Source: Sipunculus nudus (Eukaryota; Annelida; Sipuncula; Golfingiida; Sipunculidae). Taken from it: 64,000 bases of DNA. Where the stretch lies: the NCBI GenBank assembly GCA_026874595.1, contig CM049308.1:23586367-23650366 (forward strand), in the 5' to 3' direction. The notes under the pieces were generated by a model that saw only the letters and a program-made list of their open reading frames with translations, was not told where the DNA came from and searched no databases. This document shows positions 2,681 to 58,110 of the stretch, one piece after another (within the stretch, counting starts at the first letter, position 1; every line of letters begins with the position of its first letter). The position numbers and the translations under genes were made by a program.

Positions 2681-3010
2681 GAGATTTTTTCACGGTCGGC
2701 CCCCACATGCACGGGGTGAGCGCTCGGAAGACATGATTGGAAGGCCGTGCCCATCGGCCGTGTTTCACCTACAAACGAGTGCACCTTTCGGGGGTTCCTC
2801 GGCGGTATGACCCAGCAATGGGGATGATTACATCCCAGGGCCCGCAGGTGCGGTAGTCACCGGGACTAGTTATAAAGACTAGGACTAGGATATAAAGAAA
2901 GGAAGCGTGTGAAACTGCCCTGTCACGTAGTCCGAAACGGAATGGAATTCTGCAGAAGTACATGTACTTAGAGTTATGCTAGCATTGAAAAAATGGCGGC
3001 GATTACCTCG
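2680..3010 (+). repeat. 5'-truncated SINE-like dispersed repeat
   Basis: This segment shares scattered blocks with 37691-38060: CACGGTCGGCCCC, the GCCGTG...TCAC...ACAAAC stretch, GGTGCGGTAG, TGTCACGTAGTCC and the ending GGCGGTTACCTCCAC or GGCGGCGATTACCTCGAC. The other copy has an RNA polymerase III box A/B head and this one begins downstream of it, so it looks like a truncated copy. An A-rich tract follows at 3017-3060. Confidence 0.6.
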
Positions 3011-5126: not shown

Positions 5127-7159
5127 TAAGGCGCTTTTTATGTTTGTGTTTTTATTCTAGTCCGTCACTTTATTACACGGCCTCAACGCACGCAAAATCC
5201 ATTTTGATAATACTCATTATGACAAGTGGGTTTTAGAGAATGTCATTTAAATGCTATGTGTGTATTATTAAATATTACGTTCTGCACCTGTGTATTCATC
5301 CATAACAAGAAATGCAGAGTTAAAACGCAGAGTCAAAATCCTGGAAATGCATGGAAGTGTTAAATATTAGGTAGACAGGCATGTGTGTTACAGTTGTACT
5401 TATATATTTTGTATATATCTGTATGTGTTTTGTACTTCAGACTTAAGATTAAGTACCTTTTTGACATAATTTATATTTTGATATATAAAAGCCAAATATG
5501 AGCCCTGTCTAAACGTTCTTGATCTTCGCCCGATAAATATGGCGGGTTCCCAGCAGTTTATGTAATATCGAACGGGCCATCCAAATTTACACGTTATTTC
5601 TGGCGTTACACGCATCCAATTGTCATGGTGTTACGTTTTCATAAATTTATAGATCAGTTCCAAAAGAAAAAAAGTGCCACAATGAAGGAATAAGGCATAG
5701 GCTTGATTTGTTAGAATGAAACCAAAATAATAACTTATATTAAATATTTTAGTAACTGAAGAAAATTAGTCTATGAGAAAACAGTCTATATTATAACATC
5801 TCAATCCCACTGATGAAGGTCAAGGTCACTGGTCATATGCTCAAACAACTACATATTATAGCCGCTGATTGGTTGTTTAGTGTCATAAATATTCTAAAAA
5901 AATGTAACTATCGAAATTTGACTGGAAACCCATGAGATGCGCCACGTCACTTTGCCAAAAGATATAAAAGAACCAGGAGACTGCAAAAAATGTATTGTTA
6001 TTTTTTGTCATGAGTTTTGTATCTCTTTTTATGACTTTAGCCCCTCATCCGCTTTAGTATCAAAATGTGTGGTCATATTTAAGCTGAGTAGAATAATCGC
6101 CAAATTTCAGCAGGCAGCTGCTGGTCGGAAACTGACTACTGTATTGTGAATTTTGTTAAAAGCCTTAAAAGGAGCCATTTATGTATCTTGTGAACAAAAA
6201 TCACACCCGTCTCCATTGGCAGAGTGTCTTATATCTTGCAGTTAAAACATATATATATATAAACTAGTTACCGTCCTACTTACTGCGTTTTATGGTGTGA
6301 TGGGAGAAAAGTATGTGACGTCACGAAGAGAAGATAAGCACGCCATCTGGTTTGCAATGTGTGGACTAAAATACCAGTGTAAAGACTTCAGCTTACCTCC
6401 ACCCCATCTCTCCCCCCCCCCGGAAATCTGAAATCGTTCTCCTGGGGGTAGTCTAAAACTAATTTACCCCCGTACTGTTCAGATTATCCCCTTGCAGTTT
6501 AACTGAAAGATAAATACATCCGCTTTTAACTCATGATATATAATTTCAACCAAGTGAACGGTATGACATTTAAAAGATGGACTCAATCTATGAAAAATGA
6601 AACTGTCGCTAATTTAAAAAAAAATATTATCGGTGGTTATATTATTATTGAATCTTACACTTCACTTAAGATGATGACACATAACATGCAACGTTAGATA
6701 CACAAAGATTCCACCTAATATGGATAATCAGGAAGTAAGAAATTAAACGAACTTTAAGAATATAAGAATATAATGGAACTGTTTTGAATGGATTTTCTGA
6801 AGAAAACGATTTAAACATCCTTGGGGGGCGGGGGAATCTTAAGCAGGGTATTCTGAAATCGCTATACCGACAGCGTACTTCATGCCCCATGGCCAAATCA
6901 ATAAATATTTATAGCCAATTTAACACTGGCAGACTTGCTGGCTGAGACAGGCTTAAACAGGTGGCCCTGTACTTGGACAATTGACGTCAATAGATTGATA
7001 TTTACACCCTACAGGCCTATTATACAAGTCTTGATACTGGCTTAAGCGAGGCCTGTGTGTGTTACATAAAACACTCTTACCTTAATGCACCATCACATAA
7101 CAATATTTAATTATAGAACTATAAAACTCCTTCAGTTTTCTTCATATATGTACAAGAAA
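4352..7159. other. Non-coding, one long (AT)n tract
   Basis: A 50-bp (AT)25 tract occupies 5071-5120. No exon with plausible splice sites and family resemblance was found. Confidence 0.5.
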
Positions 7160-7316
7160 GGTATAAGTGATTAAATATATAATGATAAGTAACTAATGGT
7201 AATTAATTACACGCAGGTATCAGTGATTTAATATATAATGATAAGTAACTAATGATAATTAATTACACGCCGGTATCAGTGATTTAATATATAACGATAA
7301 GTAACTAATGATAATT
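7160..7316 (+). repeat. 56-bp tandem repeat, about 2.8 copies
   Basis: GGTAT followed by AGTGATT recurs at 7160, 7216 and 7272, a 56-bp period. Each unit contains ATATATAATGATAAGTAACT with few substitutions. The last copy is partial. Confidence 0.9.
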
Positions 7317-9196
7317 TTTATTTATAATGATATTTATTTTTTGGCCTTTAACTTCCCGATTGGTAATGAATCAAACCATTTTGTATTTAAATTTAGCAGT
7401 TACTTACGTGAAAAGCAGTTTGAAATACTTACTTTGATAAATGATGTCATTTCGTGAAGGACATTGTTACTGCCTTGATAATTAAAATATACTTTCACTT
7501 TAGTCATAAAAAAGTATACAATATAACATTATTCTTCGTGTGAGATAGCTCTGTTGCTCTTTTGTTTATATATCATGTGAGATCGGAGATCGGCTATTTG
7601 AAGGAAGGAGATTGTATACGCTGACAGTCCTAAATAAATCGTTAGAACACCCGTTTTCGTTGGGTGCAGACCCAGTTATACATATATGACATTAGAGCTT
7701 ATACATTTTACTGTTAAACGAAAAATCTTAAATGGCTTCAACTGAAAATAAAAAATCAGAATTAAATGAAAATAAAAATGAAATAGGCCGTTATTCAAGC
7801 AGTCTAATAACAACAACAAACTCCAGTAGGCCAAACTCCCCTCCCATAAAAAAATATATTTAAAAATAGTTTCATCTGTGCTCAGTATGTTTACAAAGCT
7901 TGATAGACGCCGTCGTATCCTACTGCTATATATTTGCGGATGAGGGCGCGGTCACCCCCCAAAACATTCCTCAGCCATCTTCTTGGTTGATACATGTCTA
8001 ATGGCCACCAAACTCTCTCTGCAGATATAGATTCCCACATTTAAGAGTGTCTTTGGAGTACTTTTCTGTAGTATCTCCGTGCACTTATCAAATCTCCACC
8101 TTACAAAAATATCGAAACTGCTCATTGAGGCTGTCATTTTGCGTACAGACTGAAACAAGTCGCATGTAACTGTGAATGCCGAAATATTTCTATATTCAAT
8201 ATATATATATATATATGGCATCAAACATGGTCAGTTCCAGATAAACTCTGCTGCTTGTTTGCTCGGTCGTTGACAACTTAGATTTCTTTAAAGGCTTGGC
8301 GTTGAGAATTTGTTGAAAGAGGAAATGGTTTAGTATAGCAGAAGAAACACAAGGTTTATATTTCTAGAAAAAAAATTCTCTTCGCGGATATTAATAATAT
8401 TTTTTTCTGTCAGTCATTTATCTTGTAAGGTATATTTTTAGGTGTAATCTTGGCTAAGAAAAGGTTAAGATCTCATTGTATCCAAATTGGCATGCAATGA
8501 TTGAAACAAGATTTTCTGGAGACGGGAGTAATTTATTATTATTTTGTACTTAATTTTGGTATTGACACAATTGCTTCGTGTAATATCAAATTAGGAAGCT
8601 TTCTATCACAATAATTATAATAGAACTATTATAATCCATTTTTTTTTTAAACGGGGTTCATTATAACGCTGAATGAATAAAAAAGGGACTTGTCAATGGA
8701 CAATTTAATCAGCCTGATAGAAAGGACTAATTTAATGATGTGATTATATTCAAACATGACTTTTTTAGGGTTAATATTACCTTGCAATTTTATAGACAAA
8801 AGAAAAGCAAACAAAGAATGGAAAGGAAACGTGCTTAATGTCGCCCGCTTTTGATGAAATATAATATGCCCTTTAAATTTCCAGGAGCACATATTTGATT
8901 TAATAAATGATCATGCTTTGTTTGATGTTATCTTTATATTCATATATAAACGCTCCATCTTAAGGACTTACACTCCTGTAATATTAAGTGCATGCGATAA
9001 ATTTATCATGTAACACACAATTTCGTGATTTTTTTACAATTATCCAGAGAGTAGTAACTAGGTAACAAGTGGTAATAAATATAAAATCGAAAATGGATAC
9101 CGTCTTTAATTATATATTATACACCAGAATCAGATTAACGTATTTGCATGGTAAGGTAAAGAAAATGAACACTGACTATAAATTATTGACCTAGAT
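7317..9196. other. Non-coding, no feature seen
   Basis: AT-rich DNA with a short (AT)n tract at about 8199-8216. No gene supported. Confidence 0.5.
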
Positions 9197-45310: not shown

Positions 45311-45524
45311 GTGGCAATAAAGCCTATATTGTAGTGCATCCGATTTATTTCTCATGTACCTGTCCAATACGAATTTCGGAGACGACAATTCCTAGGTCGG
45401 AAACCAAAAATATAGTTCGGCTTTGGTGTGAATGAAATTTCGGATGCGACAGGATTTTAGTCGGAACGACAGAAATATTCGTTCGTGTCATATTCGTTCG
45501 GGCGCATCCGGTGTGAAACCGCCT
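44094..45524. mobile_element. PIF/Harbinger-like non-autonomous element
   Basis: TAA at 44091-44093 and 45525-45527 flank inverted termini beginning AGGCGGTTTCACACCGGATG. The right end, CATCCGGTGTGAAACCGCCT, is a perfect 20-bp inverse, and similarity with CGAACGAA motifs continues for about 50 bp. A TAA/TWA duplication with such ends fits PIF/Harbinger. At 1431 bp with no transposase frame the element is non-autonomous. It contains a C/G-run hairpin at about 44646-44695 and a (CT)n(AT)n tract at 45254-45310. Confidence 0.88.
45254..45310. repeat. (CT)n(AT)n microsatellite
   Basis: About 12 CT units run into (AT)n, inside the Harbinger-like element. Confidence 0.9.
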
Positions 45525-45527
45525 TAA

Positions 45528-45784
45528 CGCCTCCGTTCGTGCGTCCGTCCGACTTTCCGTCCGGAATTGGCTTGTGGATCGATTTCAAGCCAAACCTTTT
45601 GACCAAAACCTTCATCTTGCACATATGGCTCACCCATCCATAGATGAAGAACCCTATCGATTTTGAAGTCATGGGGTCAAAGGTCACGGCCTCAGGGCCC
45701 ACTTCTTGAAAAAGGTTGTGGACCCATTTAAAGCCAAACCGTTAGACCAAAATATTTCATCTTGCACATATAGCTCACCCACGC
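45528..45784 (+). repeat. 146-bp tandem array, left part
   Basis: Starts CGCCTCCGTTCGTGCGTCCG after the Harbinger-like insertion. Units GGCTTGTGGATCGATTTCAA (from about 45566) and TTGTGGACCCATTTAAAGCC (45713) are 146 bp apart and continue at 56927 after the large insertion. Each unit carries a GGTCA-rich block such as GGGTCAAAGGTCA (45674-45686). Confidence 0.85.
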
Positions 45785-45789
45785 ATCAC

Positions 45790-45990
45790 TGTAAAAAGAA
45801 AAGGTTTTCTAAAGGGTAATAAAAAGGTTTTTATCGTGTCCAAATACAGAAACCCTTAAATGTTTTTTTTGAGAAAACCCATTTCCGAAAAACCTTTAAT
45901 AGGTTTTTTTTAAAACCCTTTAAAGGTTTTATTTAAATTACATCAAACCAAATAACCTTTATAGGGCCATGAAAAAAAAAACCCTTTTGA
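45790..45990 (+). repeat. Left subterminal repeats of the CMC-like element
   Basis: AAAAGGTTTT, AAAACCC, AACCCTTAAA and AAACCTTTAA motifs recur in both orientations at 15-30 bp spacing. In CACTA elements such motifs bind the element's own DNA-binding protein. Confidence 0.65.
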
Positions 45991-46899
45991 AAGATTTTGT
46001 TTATAGGACAAACAAGAAATCTATAGGTCATATCACGCAGTACATATTGTCTTCTAGGGTAACTGTGCATAATCTGTAAAATAAAACAAGGAAACAATAA
46101 TTTGCAGAAATCCAGATCTATTTATTTGATATTAAAACTTTACATGAGTATAACATAAACAATTGCCGCTCATGCTAATTCGACTTAAGAACAACATTCT
46201 TAGAAGTCCTACAAGATGCTGTTTTGAAATATTAAAAATCTTGCCAGACTTAACTGAAACACAAACACCTATACAAACAATTACAATATGTTTGCACATA
46301 AGATTAATCAAAAGATAACATAAATGATATATAGAAATCACAACTGAGAATTACGCTTAATAGAAAGCCCATAAAATATATCAGCACTTCATGTCACAGG
46401 ATATCCATTAAAAATTGTCTGAAAATGTAACAAATTCCTCATTACTGGTATTATTTAGGGGGATGGGGGATCGAATTAGACACTGCCTGAATTCAAACTA
46501 TAATAATTTATAAACAGATAGTAACATCAAAACTTTCTTGTATTAAAATGACATCAAAACACATATGTCTTACATGAAATGATGTATAATTTGCAGAATA
46601 GCTCGTTTTGTTATCCACTTTCTTAGCATCTTAAGTTGCAAGCCACTTTGCACATATAATAAGCCTTTTCTGTCAGATAATAAATCAAATAAAATCTTTT
46701 ATTTATCCTTGACCTATATAAGAAAATGATAATAGGTGTAAAATTGTACATTTAAAAACCAGGTTCTTGTTTCTGAATATTAGAATTTAAGATATGTTGT
46801 TCAACATATTTCATACTTTTAATAATGTGAAGACAATGCTTAAATGTAAAAAAACATATAATTCATTATATGTTATTCATGTGAAATAATTTTATGAAA

Positions 46900-47330
46900 C
46901 CTGGTTACTCTATCTTTTGAAACATAGTTTTTTATAATGGCTTTAAACTTTGACCCATGGGTCACTGTGCTCAGCCGAAGTTGACCTTGAACGTTAAAAT
47001 ATAAAATAAAAACAAATTGAGATAAAATCTGAGAAGAAGTGGTAATATAGGCCATGATTGGTCGAAGAAACTGTTGCAAATAATATTTTTTTATCTTACC
47101 ATGTGTTTCCTAATTTTAAGAATGTATGCAGTTTGTGAATAAAGATCTATATTATTACCATGACCACTGATTGGCTTTTTGATAAGCTGTTGACAGTTCA
47201 GCAGTTTACACATTTGTTCAATTAGATTCTATTTTTTTATAAAACCAATTTGTTCTCTATTTTATCCAATGTTTACAGTTCCCATAACATTAACACTCCA
47301 TAGGTGGAAGGACTTGATGGTTGGTGTAAC
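46900..47330 (+). repeat. Internal direct repeat A, copy 1
   Basis: Blocks GGTCACTGTGCTCAGCCGAA, TTGTTGCAAATAATATT, TTTCCTAATTTTAA and CTGTTGACAGTTCAGCAGTT recur in the same order at 52290-52640. Confidence 0.75.
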
Positions 47331-48699
47331 ACCTCTGTATACATTTTCATTATTTTATAAAAGTTGTGCACTTGCAAATAAAACTATTGTCCAAAGTGCT
47401 CAGGTGCAGGGACAAAGTGATGACAAAGGAGGGGGGGGGGGTGATGAGGGGAGTAACAATTTCCATTGAATATACTTCTTACAGGATATAAAATTTAAGT
47501 CAAATGTGTTTACAGAAAAAAAGGTTATTTATAATAATTAAATATTTAAAAACAGGTAAAAAAAATGGAAAAAGAATCAAATCACTTTAATTCCCATTCC
47601 ATTGAAGCAGGAAAATAATGAACAAATGTTTGCACTAGATCTTCATCTTTTTAATAACATCAATTTTTTTTCAAGTTTATAAATTTTACTATGCATTCAC
47701 CGTATAACATATATATCTGAATATCTAAGTTGATTCATAATTCACAAACTGCATCAAAAGTTATAGCTTATTTGGTCAGGTAACATCACAGTATGTACAC
47801 AGATCTATTTTTATGATATATATTTCTTAAATTTGAAAAACAATAAAAATTTGAAAATAACACGATTTAGAATTCACAATTTTAAGTTGCACCTTCACTT
47901 ATCCATGATTTGGCTCACATATTATCCAAATTATGCCTACTGATGGGTTTAATAATATTTTAATTCGCTAAAATTATTTAAAAGGAGATGCCACATTACC
48001 ACAACACGACATCAACTAGATTACTCTTTGAATAATTATTTCAAGAAAAGTTTTGTACACTGGAATATAAACAGCTTCACAATTAAAGAAATACAGTTAT
48101 TGCAATACACTAGGAGAGGGGGAGGGAGAGGTGCCATAAGAATAAATGTACACCTGTGACAGCAGGGGTGATCGACTAGCGTTGCATCACTGATAAGGTT
48201 ACCCAGGCAGGGCTGATCCACCAGAAGTGGATCTCGACAATGCAAATCATTACAAAAGAGCCTCTGTAGAAAACTTCAATAACTAGTATATTTATTTTTT
48301 AAACTTTACTTTCAAATTTCAGGTTAAATTCTTATGTTTACCTGCTGTGAATATTAAATCAAATGTAAAAAAATGCAATGGTCAATGTTGGCCAAAATTT
48401 AAGGTACTAATTTTATATTTATGCCAATAACATAAAATTTAAAAAAAATCAAGTCTAATTTTAGGTATTCAATAAAATTTTTATTGAATAAAGCCATATA
48501 ACTGGAAAAAATGCTTTAGCTTCAACAATTATCATGTGAAGGGATTCAGCTTTCTTTCCCTATTGTTTTACAAAGTGCATTATGTTTTGGCCCATAAGTT
48601 TCACAAATTACATAATACTGACCTAATTTCTGGCATGTACATAGGAACTATAGATAGAAATAATTATAGTAAATATTAAGGAAAGGAAAGTGATATTAG

Positions 48700-48950
48700 G
48701 CAGTCCTGAAAGTGTTTAATAATAGGTTTTTAATTGAAAATTCAGGTTTTACCTTAATTTCTCGAAGGAACAAACCTGCAATGACCCAGTGTAGGGTTTG
48801 GTAGGGGGTCTTGGGAACATCTAACAGTATGCTGAATTTTTTATTCGTTGGTCTGATGGTTTCACAACATGCCAGTCTAAAAGGACAGGCTGACGGACAA
48901 CGGACCATTACTGTAGCTCAGATTACTTGTAGTCAGCTGAGCTAAAAATG
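48700..48950 (+). repeat. Internal repeat B with GTCAGCTGAGCTAAAA end, copy 1
   Basis: GGAACATCTAACAGTATGCT, GACGGACAACGGACCAT and AGTCAGCTGAGCTAAAA recur at about 52950-53132. The AGTCAGCTGAGCTAAA end also recurs near 51150 and 51505. Confidence 0.75.
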
Positions 48951-49324
48951 TAATATAAATATGGTTACTTAATGCAGTTGAAAATCTTAATTGTAAACTT
49001 TGAAGTAATTTAACATAAATTACAATTTGACTTTTAAAATAAAATATCTCATTGATACACTCAAATGCACAACAAGCTTAAATTTAACAAGAACTAGCAT
49101 TGTATATTAATATTTGGTTCCCAAAGTCTTTGCAAACAAAATGGTCTTAAATCACAATATGAAATGTTAAGTTTTGATGCCCAGGTGTCGACTGTAGTGG
49201 TCACTTTTGTATCCTCTTTGCCAATGGCATACTTTTCTATAAACAAACATGTCTTTTGCAACCTCTGAGCGTAACTGATGCTATACCCAAAGGTTGTGAA
49301 CCATGCTGCCAGGACTAGTGAAAA

Positions 49325-49423
49325 CTACTTTTCTGCCCCTTCAGTAACAAGTTGCTCATCCACTTTCAGCTGGAACTGGCCCTTGCTGTCTTCCTTGATG
49401 GTGGAGAAAGGTGATGTGACATC
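49325..49423 (-). CDS. Candidate terminal exon of element-borne gene
   Basis: On the minus strand, TTTCCATTACAG is followed by GAT GTC ACA..., giving DVTSPFSTIKEDSKGQFQLK then VDEQLVTEGAEK and TAG. The composition is strongly protein-like and the acceptor is good. Family unknown. It is the farthest downstream exon I can support for the minus-strand gene in the CMC-like element. Confidence 0.5.
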   Translation of the reverse strand, partial: DVTSPFSTIKEDSKGQFQLKVDEQLVTEGAEK

Positions 49424-51515
49424 CTGTAATGGAAATACCATAGAAATACTCAAGAGAATTATCAAAATAGCCAATAAGTGATTAAAATGGATGCTCTTAT
49501 AGCTGTAATTGTATGCTGCTTTATAATGTTTATTGTCAGTTACTTTAAATTATAATACAGCTCTAGATTGAACAGAACGAACAAGGGACCTAGGGGTCCC
49601 AGAGCTCAGCTGAAACTGACTCTGAGAACAGTGGCATAATTTCCAAGTGATTGTGTTGACTGTGCACCTTCATGGACTACATGAAAGTTGTGGGAGACTC
49701 ATAATCACATATTTGTGAAAGTTTCAGTATTTCTACTAAGTGATTTGAATATGCATGTAAAAATACACAGAGAACTTATTAAACCCTGTAAAATATAGAA
49801 TACTGGACATGGACCAAAATATAATAATAAACATTAATTCATTAGCTGGTATAAAATGCTGTAAAAAATCAAATGAGCATAAACTAAATTTGACAAGCAT
49901 GTTAAAACAAGCAAAATATGTAATAATTGCATTTGCACTGTGAAATAAATGACACTTTTGGCCTCGAATCTATATCTGGACATGTGTCCTGCATTACTTA
50001 AACTGTATACATTGCAGCTTCAGCAGGTCCACCACCCTATTTGTCACAACAGGTCACAAGCTGCTTTGTTTACCTTTTTGAATGCTCCATCGCGTAAGTT
50101 ACTCATTATATAAATATATCCTTATTCATAGCAGCCTTCAGTGATGAAAACGTCTTCCACAGATAACAGATGACTGTCACTCAGATTTATATTTAACATC
50201 TTAGTCACCCTTGGTGTCTACCTTATTCACTGAAGACATCAAATCTGAGTTTGTTCACAAAACTGGGGACCATGGGTCTTGATGCTCAGGTCAATTTGTC
50301 TATAAAAATATGTTTATGAGCTTTTCAAAATATGGGTGTCAGATATATATATAGATAACTATGATCAGTTTGAAGCCAACCTGTCTACCCATACTTGAGT
50401 TATCATTCATAAACTAATATATCAATTGATGAGTTCTGTGACTTTGAACTTTAACCTAGAGACTCGAAAATCAAGAGAAAACTTCCCCTATTGGCAAGTT
50501 TGAAATGGAAAGTTTGGCACAAAATACATCCACAATCTTTTTAAAAGTGTAGGTCATGTGACCTTGACTTCATGCGTTAGAGATTGGTGAACTATAGGTC
50601 AAATTTGAAATCCATATCCAAACTGGAGTTATCACCAGGAAACAAATTTGACAGACATACAGAAAGATGAACAGATGGACGGACAGGGTGATTAATATAG
50701 GGCATCTCCTTTCTCAAGCGGGGCCCTAATAAATACAAAGGACACAGTTGAAACCACAGTTGCGAATCTGATAGTATCAACATAATTTGGCATTCTGAAA
50801 ATAAAGGAAAAAATGCATAAAAAATACAGGTGGCACCATCAATCTTAGGAACTGAAGAAACATTCCATGACCAATAAGCATGCAAAGAATCATGGAGATC
50901 AATGCATTAGTTATTCAGAAACTGGAGCTTTTGTATCAATTTTTTCATTATTCTGGGGGGTATGTAAGAGTCCCATAGCTCAAAGGATATGGGTAACAGA
51001 GATCTAATTTCAGGTTTCTATGGAGATTTTTCATGGACCTCCCTGGATGTCAAATATAAGATTGTAGGTCCAGCAGTTACGATTTGTGCCTTATTAACGG
51101 ACGGACAAAGAGTGTTTGTTATAGTTCAGATGACTTTTAGTCAGCTGAGCTAAAGAATTGTAAAAATTATGAAAAATACAGGTTGTGCCACCAGTTTTAG
51201 GGAACTGACAAATCTAGTTGTTGTTAACATTCAAGGCAAGATTCATGGCAATCCATGAATACATTATCAATATACTGGAGGTTTTCTACCAAATTTTCTA
51301 TTATTGTGGGGAAGGGGGGGGGGGGGTAACTGCTTGAAGGAAATAGGTTGCAGTGACTTATTTTCATGTTTCCAAGAATATTTTTTATAAACCTACTTGG
51401 ATTTTAAGTAACAAGTTTCCACGATTAGCGGTTACATTTTGTAGCTGGACTGACGACGGACAATGCGCCACTCTTACACCTAAGTTGACTTTCAGTCAGC
51501 TGAGCTAAAACCTGA
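49424..51515. other. CMC-like element, introns and repeats
   Basis: A possible 28-nt minus-strand microexon lies at 50074-50101 (NLRDGAFKK, donor GTAAAC), which would enter the terminal exon in phase 0. Further copies of repeat B ends lie near 50990-51155 and 51420-51510, and a G run near 51308-51326. Confidence 0.35.
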
Positions 51516-51705
51516 CCTGAATTGTCGGTCTTGTCCTTTTTTGTGGTGTTTCCTCATCTATACTGGTCAAGTTCTTCCTCTTTTGCCCACTCTTTCCTCA
51601 TCTCCCATACTTTGCTTTCGTGTGAGCAGCATCTGGAGTGTCAGTAAGTGGTATTCTTATTGCTTTCATCATGCTGGGAAGGGGTTCCTTCCAGGAATAT
51701 AAATA
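51516..51705 (-). pseudogene. SAMD3-like exon with in-frame TGA
   Basis: Minus-strand exon from acceptor TGTGTAG to donor GTCAGG. In the frame entered from 52019 it reads YLYSWKEPLPSMMKAIRIPL, TDTPDAAHTKAKYGR, stop, GKSGQKRKNLTSIDEETPQK and on. W-K-x-x-L, LTDTP and KAKYG in this order match the region after KYPxL in proteins annotated as SAMD3-like. The TGA (codon 36, probably a former CGA) is the only interruption. Spliced entry is in phase 0 and exit in phase 1. Confidence 0.55.
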
Positions 51706-52018
51706 CTACACAGAAATCACTCAAATAAATAATAATACTTGAACCGACTCTTCTAAATCCACCTTTTGCTAACATTTGTTTACCCTGCAGGTAATAATTC
51801 AAAATAAATAACAATTAACAAGTGAAAACAAAAACCATTCTAGTGTACCAACAGAAATATATTTGTGATTGCTTATAGTTATTATTTCCACCAACATCAC
51901 TTACTTCAGGTATCAGACTGTCATTGTCATATTTCTTTTTTAGATATGTTTTAAAATTAAAATAATTCTAAAGTATTGTACAGGCTACAACCCGTTGATC
52001 TTAACAGAAAGTACTTAC
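51706..52018 (-). other. Intron between the two SAMD3-like exons
   Basis: A 313-bp intron with a GTAAGT donor and TAG acceptor, read on the minus strand. Confidence 0.45.
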
Positions 52019-52091
52019 ATATTTTCCTATATGAGGATACTGATGTAACAGGGCAGTCATTATTCTTTTATATCCTTTCCTGAATGGGCAC
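52019..52091 (-). CDS. SAMD3-like exon (FRKGYKRIMTALLHQYPHIG)
   Basis: Minus-strand exon between CTTTTCAG and TAT|GTAAGT. After one phase base it reads CPFRKGYKRIMTALLHQYPH then IGKY. The pattern (Y-x-x-I/V)(x)ALxxxYPxL matches, from memory, a helical motif of uncharacterised invertebrate and fish proteins often named SAMD3-like. It joins 51516-51705 in frame. Immediately upstream (52129-52227) another open stretch reads RREEPGDTPSLF, but the 37-nt gap is too short for a normal intron. Confidence 0.6.
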
Positions 52092-52289
52092 CTGAAAAGA
52101 TTAATATTTGATCATTAAAACATGCAACTCGAACAAAGAGGGAGTGTCTCCTGGTTCCTCTCTCCTTTTCGAGGTGAGCACCTTTATTCTTGACTGTACC
52201 ACTTCTGTTTCCAGTAAAATTCTGAATCTGCCTATATATGATACCACACATATATTACACTGGTAAGTAATTAAAATCAAGGGACCAAA

Positions 52290-52640
52290 GGGTCACTGTG
52301 CTCTGCTGAAGTTGAACTTGAAGGTAAAAATCTAAAATAATATCAAATGGAGATAAAAGGGGAAAAGGCAATATAGTCCATGATGGGTTTGTATTTATGA
52401 GTAAGAAATTGTTGCAAATAATGTTCTGTGACCAAACCATGCATTTCCTAATGTTAAAATTGAAGCATGTGAGCAGGTTGTGAAAATAAGATGTGAATTA
52501 TTACCAAGATCATTAGTTGGCCTTTTGATACACTGTTGAAAGTTCAGTAGTTTTCACTTTTGTTCAATTTGATCTATTTTTTATATATATCATTAATATA
52601 TGGGAGTTACAACATCTCTGTATTATTATAGTGTACATAC
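52290..52640 (+). repeat. Internal direct repeat A, copy 2
   Basis: Second copy of 46900-47330, about 5.4 kb away, diverged by roughly a fifth, and followed at 52950 by repeat B copy 2 in the same relative order as the first pair. Confidence 0.75.
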
Positions 52641-52649
52641 CAGGGTTGG

Positions 52650-52812
52650 GACCAGGTACTTGTATCTGTACCTAGGTATATTCAAAAGTACCTGTACCTG
52701 TACCTATAGGCACTTTACAAAACTGCTGTACCTGTACCTGAACCTGTACCTGACCATTTTTCAATACCTGTTCCTGTACCTAGGTACTGTCACATGTACC
52801 TGGACCCTACCC
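52650..52812 (+). repeat. TACCTG hexamer-like minisatellite
   Basis: GTACCTGTACCTG-type units with GTACCTAGGTA variants recur about 15 times between 52657 and 52812. Confidence 0.85.
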
Positions 52813-52949
52813 TGGTGTATATACATAGGATTTTCACTTAATTCTACAATGCTTACAGAATAAAAAAGTTCATTTACAATTACTTAATATTTAAAATAGG
52901 AGAGAAAGACTTAGACACACAAAGCTGATAACAAAGAATTTTTTTTTAG

Positions 52950-53132
52950 TCTCAGTGACCAATTTTGGTAGGAGACTCAGGGGACATCTAACAGTATGCT
53001 GAGTTTTGGATTTGTAGGTCTAACGGTTTCAAAATGTGCAAGTCTAACGGACTGTAAACAGACGGAAAGACAGACAACGGAAATGGACCACGACTATACC
53101 TCAGATGACTAATAATCAGCTGAGCTTAAAAT
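52950..53132 (+). repeat. Internal repeat B, copy 2
   Basis: Carries GGGGACATCTAACAGTATGC, GACAACGGAAATGGACCA and AATCAGCTGAGCTTAAAA, matching 48700-48950. Confidence 0.75.
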
Positions 53133-53189
53133 AACAAGTGACTGCATTGCCCTATAAGCTTTAAAACAATTTATTGTGTGTATGAGACT

Positions 53190-54200
53190 GATATGAGATA
53201 TTGACATTGACATATTATTATGTATGTGTACCCATCTTCACTCGACATCAAATACATGGAGGGGGTGGTGAGGGGGGGGGGGGGGTTTGAGGTGTTGGAA
53301 ATGTCAATGTCTCTCTGTTGAATGTAACCAGCTTCACACAAACGTGTGTACCTGTCTTCACTCGACATCAAATACATGGAGTGTGTGTGTGTGGGGGGGG
53401 GAGGGGGGTGGGGGGTGGGAGTGAGGTGTTGGACAGTACTCTCTGACAAATGTGACTGGCCTCACACACATAGGTATGTGTACCTGTCTTCACTCGACAT
53501 CAAATTCATGGAGTGTGTGTGTGTGTGAGGGGGGGGGGGGGAGTGAGGTGTTGGACAATACTTTCTGTCAAATGTGACTAGCCTCACACACAAAGGTGTG
53601 TGTGCCTGTATTCACTCCACATCAAAAACATGGAGTGGGGGTTCAAGGTGTTGGACAGTACTCTCTGTCAAATGTGACTGGCCTCACACACATAAGTATG
53701 TGTACCTGTCTTCACTCGACATCAAATACATGGAGTGTGTGTGTGGGGGGGGGGGGGAGTGAGGTGTTGGACAGTACTCTCTGACAAATGTGAATGGCCT
53801 CACACACATAGGTATGTGTACCTGTCTTCACTCGACATCAAATACATGGAGTGTGTGTGTGTGTTTGGGGGGGGGGGGGAGTGAGGTGTTGGACAGTACT
53901 CTCTGACAAATGTGACTGGCCTCACACACATAAGTATGTGTACCTGTCTTCACTCGACATCAAATACATGGAGTGTGTGTGTGTGTGTGGGGGGGGGGGA
54001 GTGAGGTGTTGGACAGTACTCTCTGTCAAATGTGACTGGCCTAACACACATAGGTATGTGTACCTGTCTTCACTCGACATCAAATACATGGAGTGTGGGG
54101 GGGGGGGGGGGTGAGGTGTTGGACAGTACTCTCTGTCAAATGTGACTGGCCTCACACACATAGGTATGTGTACCTGTCTTCACTCGACATCAAATACATG

Positions 54201-54234
<34 letters not shown>

Positions 54235-55010
54235 GTGAGGTGTTGGACAGTACTCTCTGACAAATGTGACTGGCCTCACACACATAGGTATGTGTACCTG
54301 TCTTCACTCGACATCAAATACATGGAGTGTGTGTGTTGGGGGGGGGGGGGGGGTGAGATGTTGGACAGTACTCTATGAAAAATGGAGGGGGATGGTCAGG
54401 GGAGGGGGGTTTGAGGTGTTGGACAATACTTTCTGTCAAATGTGACTAGCCTCACACACAAAGGTGTGTGTGCCTGTATTCACTCCACATCAAAAACATG
54501 GAGTGGGGGTTCAAGGTGTTGGACAGTACTCTCTGTCAAATGTGACTGGCCTCACACACATAGGTGTGTTTACCTGTCTTCACTCGACATCAAATACATG
54601 GATAGTGTGTGTGTGTGTGGGGGGGGGGGGGGAGTGAGGTGTTGGACAGTACTCTCTATCAAATGGAGGGGGATGGTGAGGGGAGGGGGGTTTGAGGTGT
54701 TGGACAGTACTTTCTGTCAAATGTGACTGGCCTCACACACATAGGTGTGTGTACCTGTCTTCACTCGACATCAAATACATGGATAGTGTGTGTGGGTGTG
54801 TGTGGGGGGGGGGGGGGGAGTGAGGTGTTGGACAGTACTCTCTATCAAATGGACGGGGATGGTGAGGGGAGGGGGGTTTGAGGTGTTGGACAGTACTTTC
54901 TGTCAAATGTGACTGGCCTCACACACATAGGTGTGTGTACCTGTCTTCACTCGACATCAAATACATGGAGTGGTTGAGGTGAGGGGGGGGGGGGGGGGAG
55001 GTTGAAGTGT
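53190..55010 (+). repeat. G-rich minisatellite, about 14 units of 100-180 bp
   Basis: Each unit combines TTCACTCGACATCAAATACA, (GT)n, a G run of 8-17, GTGAGGTGTTGGACAGTACT, CAAATGTGACTGGCCTCACA and CACATAGGTATGTGTACCTG. Units begin near 53237, 53357, 53488, 53610, 53710, 53826, 53948, 54068, 54178, 54301, 54478, 54577, 54757 and 54941. Length varies mainly through the GT and G tracts. A longer pattern (AAAGGTGTGTGTGCCTGTAT with ATCAAAAACATGG) occurs at 53590 and 54460, so multi-unit blocks were duplicated. Open frames here are by-products. Confidence 0.92.
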
Positions 55011-56613
55011 TGGACAGTGCTTTCTGCTTATGTGACTTTCTTCACACGGGTAGGTGTATATACTATCTTTTCCCACTAATAAATTAGTACTTTGAGGATG
55101 GGGAGATAGTACTCTCTGTCAGATATTACTTTATTAGTTCAAACATGTATGCATGTACCAGTACTTGGAAGAAGAGTGATGGGTTGGACATTCAATATTA
55201 CTCTCTCACAGATAGATACATTTATACATAAAGAAGGTTGCTATACCAAACTCAAAACAAGGCCCATAGATGTGTATCAAATGGAATTATTTTTTTATTA
55301 TAATGATACCTTAAAAGTGCTCAGTATAGTACTGTACATATTCTGTGATAGATAATTGAAATTTAATTGAAGAACTTACAAACTGTTGAATTAGCAGGAG
55401 GCACATAACAGTTGTAATTTTCAAATTCAACAAGTTGTCACAGAAAAAATGCATGGATGTTCTGTTTTATTTTACTTTTTATGCTGGAAGTTGATCATTG
55501 GTCCAAGTATGTGAAAATATTAATAAAGGTTGCTGTCTGGCCTTTATAAATTATATAAACTGTTGTAAGCTTTTAATCATATCATATATGTACAGAGGCT
55601 ACATCATAATGGTATTGTATATATGCATGGAAGAGGTAGGTAAGAAATCACCATTGCAAACTAATTTTTATATTGAGGCATTATGAAACACACTGCTGAC
55701 AAGGCTCTAAAATAGATACTCCTTTTCAAAATCAGCTGGGTATAATTTAAAAACAAAGTGAGTTGACAATGTAAATTCTAATTTAAAAAAAAATAATTTT
55801 GAGTTTACCAGCACATGCAATGGAATATATGTATAAAAGTAATTTTTGTATTTTTTTTGTAAATCTTAAAGGTTAAATCATTTTTTTTAATATGTTGTCC
55901 TATAGCACCACTTAATATAATCCAATAGAACATAAAATAATTTATGGAAGACATGAACATTCATTAATGTTACTGTTCCTATGTAAGGACTCAGCATTTT
56001 TTTTATTCTTTTGTTAACTGTATTCTGTAACTATATAAATATTAAATATATGTGGCCTGGATGACATCCCAGGCATCTGATTTGGACTGAACAATATTGT
56101 CAATAATAATAATACAACAAAAAATATAATCCGTACATAGCGAAAATGCCCAGTTATGGAATGAGTAAATAAACATGCATGTGTCTGCTGGTAATAACTT
56201 GTACCCAGTATACGTATAACTTGGACACAACACGTTTTGGGATGCAAATGTCGTTTGTTTACATGCCGGGGACGGGGGGGGGGGGGGGGCGGTAGCGCTG
56301 TTAAAGACCGGCTGAGTAATGCTTTTCAAAGTCGTGTTGCTCCTTGATTCTAATGCAATGCGGATTTTTACATCCGGCAGACCATATAGGAATCGTCTTT
56401 TGTAGGTGACATCCGTTAAAAAGCCTTTTCATCGCTAAAACATACCAAGCCACCTGCTTTTGTCATACCGGGCCGCCATCTTGAAAATCCCACTGCACTA
56501 GACGCCGCCATGCGCCTAACATTCCACGGCGTAAAACTAAATGTAGATGTGCCAAGTTGTTTCACCTGTTTACAAGCAATTGCCATGATCATCATGATAC
56601 AAAACTGACTTAC
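55011..56613 (-). other. CMC-like element: presumed intron 1 region of minus-strand gene
   Basis: Mostly AT-rich. Minus-strand 55369-55432 reads LVEFENYNCYVPPANSTV before a GTAAGT donor but lacks an AG acceptor, so it is not called. A G run lies at about 56274-56289. A GCCGCCATCTT (YY1-type AAGATGGCGGC on the minus strand) lies at 56472-56482. Confidence 0.35.
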
Positions 56614-56839
56614 CTGAAAGCTTGAATTTCTGAGAGTGACGGATTCTCTGCATAAAAATAGTAATTTGCTGTTGGTCTTTCTGACACCTCATGTCACTGG
56701 TGAAGCCGCCAAGAAGATACACGTCACGCGTGACGTGTTCAGTCAAACGCCGGCAGTGCACCCTCGCGTTAATATAACGAATTAATGACACACTCGCGGG
56801 AAAGGGGTTTTTACGGGAAATACATAAAACAAAACCCAT
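56614..56839 (-). CDS. Candidate first coding exon of element-borne gene
   Basis: On the minus strand an open frame from ATG 56839-56837 (MGFVLCISRK...) continues through a second ATG at 56692-56690 (MRCQKDQQQITIFMQRIRHS then QKFKLS) to a strong TCAG|GTAAGT donor before 56613. It lies about 85 bp inside the right terminus, where a transposon-encoded gene would start. The family is not recognised and the true start is undecided. Confidence 0.4.
56719..56738. promoter_or_regulatory. Perfect 20-bp palindrome with paired ACGTCA half-sites
   Basis: ACACGTCACGCGTGACGTGT is its own complement and holds two TGACGTG/CACGTCA bZIP-type half-sites around CGCG. It lies about 190 bp inside the right end of the CMC-like element. 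If the short ATG at 56692 is used, it is 27 bp upstream of the start. Confidence 0.6.
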
Positions 56840-56912
56840 TTACAAGAGGCTACGGGTGAGGGAAGAAAGAACAACCCGTTTATCTAGAAACAACCGTTTT
56901 ATAAAACCCTTT
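56775..56912 (-). repeat. Right subterminal repeats of the CMC-like element
   Basis: AAGGGTTTTATAAAACGG, AAACGGGTT, AAATGGGTTTTG and AAAAACCCC (minus strand) mirror the motifs at 45790-45990. Confidence 0.6.
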
Positions 56913-56926
56913 CTTCTTACAGTGAT

Positions 56927-58110
56927 GGATGAAGATACTTTTCGATTTTGTGGTCATAGGATCAAAGGTCACGGCCACAGGGCCCACCTCTTGAAAAAGC
57001 TTGTGGACCCATTTAAAGCCAAACCATTTGACCAAAACCTTTCATCTTACATATCAGGTCATGGGGTCAAAGATCACGGCCACAAGGTCCACTTCTCGAA
57101 AAAGCTTGTGGTACCCGTTTAGAGCCAAACCGTTTGACCAAAACCTATTATCTTGCAAATATGGCACACCCACCCATGGATGAAGACATCTATCGATTTT
57201 GAGGTCACGGGGTTAAAGGTCACGGCCACAGGGCCCACTTCTTGAAAAAACTTGTGGACCCATTTAAAGCCAAACCGTTTGACCAAAACCTTTCATCTTA
57301 CTCATATGGCTCACACATCCATGGACGGAGAACCCTATTAATTTTCAGGTCATGGGTTCAGAGGTCACTTCCACAAAGCCCACTTCTTAAAAAAAGCTTG
57401 TGGACCCATTTAAAGCCAAACCTTTTGACCAAAACCTTTTATCTTGCAGATATGGCTCACCCACCCATGGATGAAGACATCTATCGATTTTGAGGTCACG
57501 GGGTCAAAGGTCACGGCCACAGGGCCCACTTCTTGAAAAAGCTTGTGGACCCATTTAAAGCCAAACCGTTTGACCAAAACCTTTCATCTTACTCATATGG
57601 CTCACACATCCATGGACGAAGAATCCTATTAATTTTCAGGTCATGGGTTCAGAGGACACTTCCACAAAGCCCACTTCTTAAAAAAAAAGCTTGTGGACCC
57701 ATTTAAAGCCAAACCGTTTGACCGAAACCTTTCATCTTGCAAATATAGCTCATCCACCCATTGATGAAGAACAATATCGATTCTGAGGTCACCGGGTCAA
57801 AGGCATGGCCACAGGGCCCACTTCTTGAAAAGTTTGTGGACCTATTTTAGGCCAAACCATTTGACCAACAGATTTCATCTTTAACATGGCTCACCCATCT
57901 ATTGATGAAGAACCCTATTGATTTTCATGTCATGGGGTCAAAGGTCACGGCCACATGGTCTACTTCTTGAAAAAGCTTGTGGACCCATTTAAAGCCAACC
58001 GTTTGACTAAAACCTTTCATCTTGCTCATATGACTCACCCACCCATGGATGAAAAACCTTGAGGTCACAGGAGCAAAGGTCAAGGCCAGAGAGCGCCCTC
58101 CTCATTCTCA
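56927..58110 (+). repeat. 146-bp tandem array, right part
   Basis: Units starting CTTGTGGACCCATTTAAAGC recur at about 57000, 57105, 57251, 57397, 57542, 57690, 57835 and 57977. Each has ACCAAAACCTTTCATCTT, ATGGCTCACCCACCCATGGA and GAGGTCA...GGGTCAAAGGTCACGG. It continues the array at 45528-45784. Confidence 0.92.

Follow-up and report, generated by a model that had tools for sequence, protein, structure and literature searches.

The window analysed here, a 64,000-nucleotide stretch of the Sipunculus nudus genome (C3:23586367-23650366, forward strand, in a searched assembly of 1.43 Gb and 153 contigs), contains a transposon copy that carries a spliced gene on its minus strand, interrupted by a stop codon. 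The favoured explanation, to which we give a probability of roughly 0.6, is that this is the relic of a gene belonging to a CACTG-ended, EnSpm/CACTA-like lineage of elements with 2-bp (TA or AT) target site duplications: an old element gene, not a recent capture. Ancestral elements would already have held the gene, and the ancestor of the window copy and its near relatives would have acquired the stop in one exon (exon B) and then spread.

That there is a transposon at this locus, as an earlier note on this DNA had claimed, is borne out by alignment with ten other copies, although the right end, at 56924, lies 85 bases past the end proposed there. The left limit, 45787, is common to nine of the ten aligned copies, with the remaining copy ending three bases further, and the right limit is found in eight; the copy on C5 is cut by the sequence stretch compared, and the one on C16 is interrupted and has its own right end outside that stretch. 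Nine copies, that of the window among them, can be followed from end to end and measure 9.5-12.5 kb; much of the difference in length is due to an internal minisatellite and to some 1.4-1.5 kb that C4 and C5 each have in addition. The termini read CACTG...CAGTG (CACTGTAAGAAGAAAGGG... at one end, ...CCTTTTCTTTTTACAGTG at the other). Ends of the form CACTR..YAGTG with an inverted repeat are a feature of EnSpm/CACTA (CMC) elements, and both this terminal arrangement (24 of 27 bases inverted) and a short target duplication (2 bp, AT) are present in the window copy. These two features, on which the assignment is made, fit a putative member of that group. Of the other copies, eight show both flanks, and each of the eight is bordered by TA left and right; the single visible flank in C5 is also TA, and the left flank in C16, the only one in view, is TG. 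Removing one AT rebuilds an empty site of the window copy that matches a unit of the surrounding minisatellite. This minisatellite, with a unit of about 145 bp (TCAGGTCATGGGGTCAAAGG...), occupies window positions 57054-58058 and, by eye, 45457-45741, and the element is inserted into it.

The gene consists of exons A and B and a terminal exon (Table 1), which, when spliced at GT/AG borders of matching phase, give one frame of 119 codons, CPFRKGYKRIMTALLHQYPHIGKYYLYSWKEPLPSMMKAIRIPLTDTPDAAHTKAKYGR, stop, GKSGQKRKNLTSIDEETPQKRTRPTIQDVTSPFSTIKEDSKGQFQLKVDEQLVTEGAEK, stop, with a single internal TGA directly after KAKYGR in exon B. The earlier note had joined two minus-strand exons in frame and placed a terminal exon near 49325; these predictions hold, in that the borders and phases of A and B agree, the quoted peptides are present, and the terminal exon joins exon B in phase 0. 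What the note missed, in presenting the gene without interruption, is the fixed TGA, which is carried by all 11 near copies compared (the window included), and by which the gene is broken in this subfamily. Nor does its first exon by the right terminus fare well. At 226 nt (56839-56614) it ends with a single base left over, whereas two are required by exon A, and so the two exons are not joined in frame; its ATG at 56839 is, by eye, missing in the older copy L036. Just within the right end of L036 there is a different frame of 58 codons (L036:409-582; MADQDDNNTWYVFVNKRLFKGCYVQRTISIWSARCKRTHC..., MADQDDNNTW...), which has no Pfam family and whose window counterpart, at 56479, is broken.

How did the gene decay within the family? 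The 11 near copies differ by a mean of 1.6% in pairwise comparison, and their variable sites per base amount to 0.096, 0.069 and 0.061 in exon A, exon B and the terminal exon, and to 0.096, 0.067 and 0.066 in the intron between A and B, the intron between B and the terminal exon, and the downstream sequence; this set gives no sign of selection on the protein. Considering that the TGA is in every one of these copies and that the exons are about as variable as the introns, the breakage of the gene predates the spread of the family. The stop was already present in the ancestor of the near copies, and the broken gene has spread with them, evolving like the adjoining DNA, in a clear example of a family spreading with a broken gene aboard. 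At 29 of 36 exon B places in the genome the open frame runs for 34-35 codons, the length expected from the TGA, and at the other seven it is longer. The terminal-exon stretch of L031, an older copy 84-87% identical to the window in matched pieces, has a 4-base gap.

Gene and element are found together nearly throughout the genome. The 147-bp right end and exon B each occur at 36 or more genomic places (both counts are lower bounds), and 34 of the 36 right ends have an exon B on their own strand, 3.3-17.6 kb downstream. Two ends have no exon B (C2:71632382 and C9:55453869), and two exon B places have no right end (C16:46159055, and C6:30602228, which has left-end sequence at C6:30597070). The family, of about 36 copies, is young.

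Homologues are also found at greater distance. A genome search with the spliced peptide (E <=10) gave 126 matches, from which we removed the young family's own copies, each contributing three exons, the older members of that family (C7:40365162 with 40365700 and 40363116, C7:40347113, C7:40321830, C16:6301907 and C3:25634458) and the locus L030 (C16:46159001). Fourteen distant places are left, 30-47% identical to the query, with E from 9.6e-8 to 8.2 (above 0.3 in six of them). Sites resembling the element's ends were located with two patterns, the first matching 84+77 genome sites (control 8+2; the first 100 of 161 listed) and the second 58+61 (control 0+0; the first 100 of 119 listed). Among the sites listed, at least six of the 14 distant homologues are within 15 kb of an end-like site (distances 9.4, 9.2, 9.2, 4.0, 3.2 and 2.7 kb), and all six sites lie downstream on the opposite strand, the same arrangement as in the window. 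The six homologues concerned are 33-47% identical over the matched stretch. By the same measure, no listed site falls near any of 21 transposase places used as controls (23 rows, less the query's own place and the second piece of C9:3974541) or any of seven PF02992 places. The chance figure for the first three links, calculated with all 161 first-pattern sites, is 1.7e-5; the figure for six links, 3e-17, assumes that homologues and sites are independent and is not to be taken literally. Judged by coordinates, then, six of the distant relatives are followed by related inverted repeats, with the order and orientation seen in the window, and a recent capture of the gene is improbable.

Several observations weigh against this interpretation. 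The second end pattern was composed after two of the links were already known; three of the six linked homologues are weak matches (C8:72589926, E 0.3; C14:8056137, E 1.2; C3:51926206, E 3.9), and the three links at 9.2-9.4 kb have a common 22-base end and may represent a single family. Among the sites listed, eight of the 14 distant homologues have no end nearby, including the best of them, C6:30293353 (E 9.6e-8, 42% identical), as well as C7:35671488, C10:71005825 and C2:39252440 (E 0.01-0.06). A related family with similar ends, L039, has no such exons, and the gene is therefore not universal among elements with such ends. Finally, all 53 genome rows for EnSpm-type transposases are more than 30 kb away from the 36 right ends, and the 44 rows that are left when second pieces of one locus are dropped are also more than 30 kb from the 81 end or homologue sites listed. 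We keep the view that the gene is an old resident of the lineage because neither weak matches nor a pattern composed late should favour one strand and one side.

The alternative of a one-off capture, in which a non-autonomous CACTA-like element took up part of a host gene and then spread, is in our judgment unlikely. It would agree with the lack of a transposase-sized frame in the element, with the lack of the exons in L039 and with the retention of introns, which is expected of capture at the DNA level, and the best distant homologue, having no end among the sites listed, could be kin of the donor gene. Against it stand the homologues that adjoin related ends in a single orientation (at least six of 14), and once the family with its older members and L030 is set aside, the peptide search found nothing above 47% identity. 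The earlier note had offered two roles for the gene, accessory regulator or captured host gene, and the second of these now looks less likely. Its broader claim of a spliced minus-strand gene in a CACTA-like element is upheld by the pairing of exon B with right ends and of distant relatives with related ends, and needs amending in that the gene is broken and the proposed first exon out of frame.

It is very unlikely that the exons are accidental open stretches that splice in frame by luck. Such an origin would suit the lack of Pfam and PDB matches described below, and it would also suit the comparison of exon B with L031: the changes number 1, 6 and 3 at codon positions 1, 2 and 3, with no third-position excess, and 60-base windows over the exon are 0.87-0.97 identical, inside the spread of 0.70-0.97 elsewhere (the unaligned first window omitted) and toward its upper half. 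Luck is harder to reconcile with an older copy in which exons A and B and the terminal exon follow one another as they do here (C7:40365700, 40365162 and 40363116), with the alignment of C4:69017059 and C5:5475718 to residues 5-84, across the junction of exons A and B, as a single stretch with one TAG inside, or with the presence of a 119-base exon B homologue in a different setting in L030. A working gene in the window, for instance through stop readthrough or as a shorter product, is hardly credible, since the stop is in 11 of 11 copies and exon variation is not clearly below intron variation, even though, depending on the site, 7 to 11 of the 11 copies have unaltered splice-site strings for exon A, exon B and the terminal exon.

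The family appears to depend on other elements for its movement. Across the 11 copies, of which C5 and C16 are incomplete on the right, stop-to-stop frames reach at most 184 codons, and frames of at least 110 codons are confined to the minisatellite or lie close inside the right end, except for one of 113 codons in C5; with no transposase-sized frame in this set, the family is taken as non-autonomous. A transposase encoded elsewhere would presumably mobilise it in trans. An autonomous partner was not found through the end patterns (among the matches listed), PF02992 or a search of the genome with an EnSpm-type protein, in a transposase search that scored 51 of 118 candidates. L035, L036 and L039 share the ends, and inspection of their frames by eye, with no family search run, revealed no recognisable transposase. 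The CACTA-like type named in the earlier note agrees with the ends and the duplication; no transposase turned up near any copy.

One locus suggested a direct connection between exon B and a transposase. In L030, a decayed transposase gene of the GDGRC type is fused at 3005/3006 to a 119-bp exon B homologue, and exon B might have been the frameshifted C-terminus of that protein. We dropped this idea because of L033, which is 84% identical to L030 up to L030:3005 and then continues with an end of its own (TQLAALDH...). Homology between the two loci stops at 3005 and exon B homology begins at 3006, and exon B is therefore a separate module that was joined there.

What might the intact gene have encoded? 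The order of the peptide motifs quoted in the earlier note resembles that of SAMD3-like uncharacterised animal proteins, and SAMD3-like is a putative label here. Profile searches with the translated exons gave nothing above the Pfam cut-off (best CCDC71L, E 0.03-0.05), and PDB held no match. A SAM domain is expected of a SAMD3-like protein, and none was matched by Pfam in the 119-codon fragment, which may be the C-terminal part alone. In its ancestral form the gene may have encoded a small basic protein that served as an accessory factor at the element's own ends. Perhaps some of the SAMD3-like proteins of molluscs, and possibly of other animals, come from an EnSpm-like lineage with CACTG ends and TA targets, whose accessory gene they represent, as DNA-binding helpers with a role like that of plant TnpA, and many annotated "host" copies are transposon genes or domesticated ones; this wider proposal is speculative and rather doubtful. 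Little is known of CACTA-like elements in animals, and still less of the accessory genes that they carry. Among the papers listed, our literature search found no SAMD3-like gene in a transposon, as judged by titles and the openings of abstracts, and nothing on accessory genes of animal EnSpm elements. If the gene has been retained beside such ends across several families, a helper function has probably gone unrecognised, and gene catalogues may be counting transposon genes as host genes.

The element can be compared with several known systems. It resembles non-autonomous EnSpm/CACTA (CMC) elements in its CACTG ends, short inverted repeat and large size, in the AAAGGGTTT-like words repeated near its ends (by eye) and in its presumed reliance on transposase in trans; it differs from them in its 2-bp TA or AT duplication and its broken spliced gene. 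In plants, EnSpm/CACTA elements usually have a duplication of 3 bp. The gene-bearing plant elements known as Pack-CACTA are reported to be likewise non-autonomous and to carry gene exons (PMC8903248, PMC13317346). Some relatives of the present gene also adjoin related ends, and capture of the Pack-CACTA kind is therefore not the simplest reading. For the wider EnSpm group, another report gives mostly CA..TG ends and duplications of 2-5 bp, and describes ESTA, fungal EnSpm-like elements with TA duplications, a known transposase and an extra TET/JBP gene (PMC12730594). ESTA shares with the window element a TA duplication and an extra gene; ESTA is fungal, and nothing in the window element suggests that its extra gene is the same. 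SmTRC1 and the animal TRC elements, placed in the CACTA superfamily in 2006, have 2-bp direct repeats, as here, and reported ends that begin with CCC (PMC1636069), unlike the CACTG of the window element.

Table 1. The transposon copy, its ends and its gene, in window positions
Feature	Position	Strand	Remarks
Whole transposon copy	45787..56924	minus	11,138 bp; taken as non-autonomous; limits from alignment with ten other copies
Left terminal inverted repeat	45787..45813	plus	CACTGTAAAAAGAAAAGGTTTTCTAAA
Right terminal inverted repeat	56898..56924	minus	CACTGTAAGAAGAAAGGGTTTTATAAA; 24/27 bases match the left end when reverse-complemented
Target site duplication AT, left	45785..45786	none	read from sequence
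Target site duplication AT, right	56925..56926	none	read from sequence
Exon A	52019..52091	minus	CPFRKGYKRIMTALLHQYPHIGKY; TTTCAG acceptor, GTAAGT donor; repeated in the genome
Exon B	51517..51705	minus	YLYSWKEPLPSMMKAIRIPLTDTPDAAHTKAKYGR, stop, GKSGQKRKNLTSIDEETPQKRTRPTIQ; GT/AG borders
In-frame TGA	51598..51600	minus	in 11/11 near copies; TCA in L029, CGA in L031
Terminal exon	49325..49423	minus	DVTSPFSTIKEDSKGQFQLKVDEQLVTEGAEK, stop; acceptor CATTACAG, phase 0
First exon of the earlier note	56614..56839	minus	donor string exact in 8/11 copies; coding status unsupported
Internal minisatellite	53222..55025	none	units of about 100-186 bp; varies among copies

Some further loci deserve mention. 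Long EnSpm-type transposase frames above the PF02992 cut-off are found at L037:3410-6100 (897 codons) and L038:2983-5749 (549 and 375 codons); the 10 kb around these frames contain no ends of the window element's family, and the best match of the two loci to the spliced peptide (E 1.7) is not meaningful. The older copy L036 has minus-strand frames at 6007-7555 that resemble integrase and RNase H pieces and may come from a nested retroelement. L039 (C4:37576465-37583070) represents a second family, apparently non-autonomous, whose ends are related (CACTGTTAGAACAAAGGG) and whose internal repeats are its own, and further end pairs like those of L039 occur at C2:31118818-31129800, C3:10932110-10938697 and C4:52688005-52694063.

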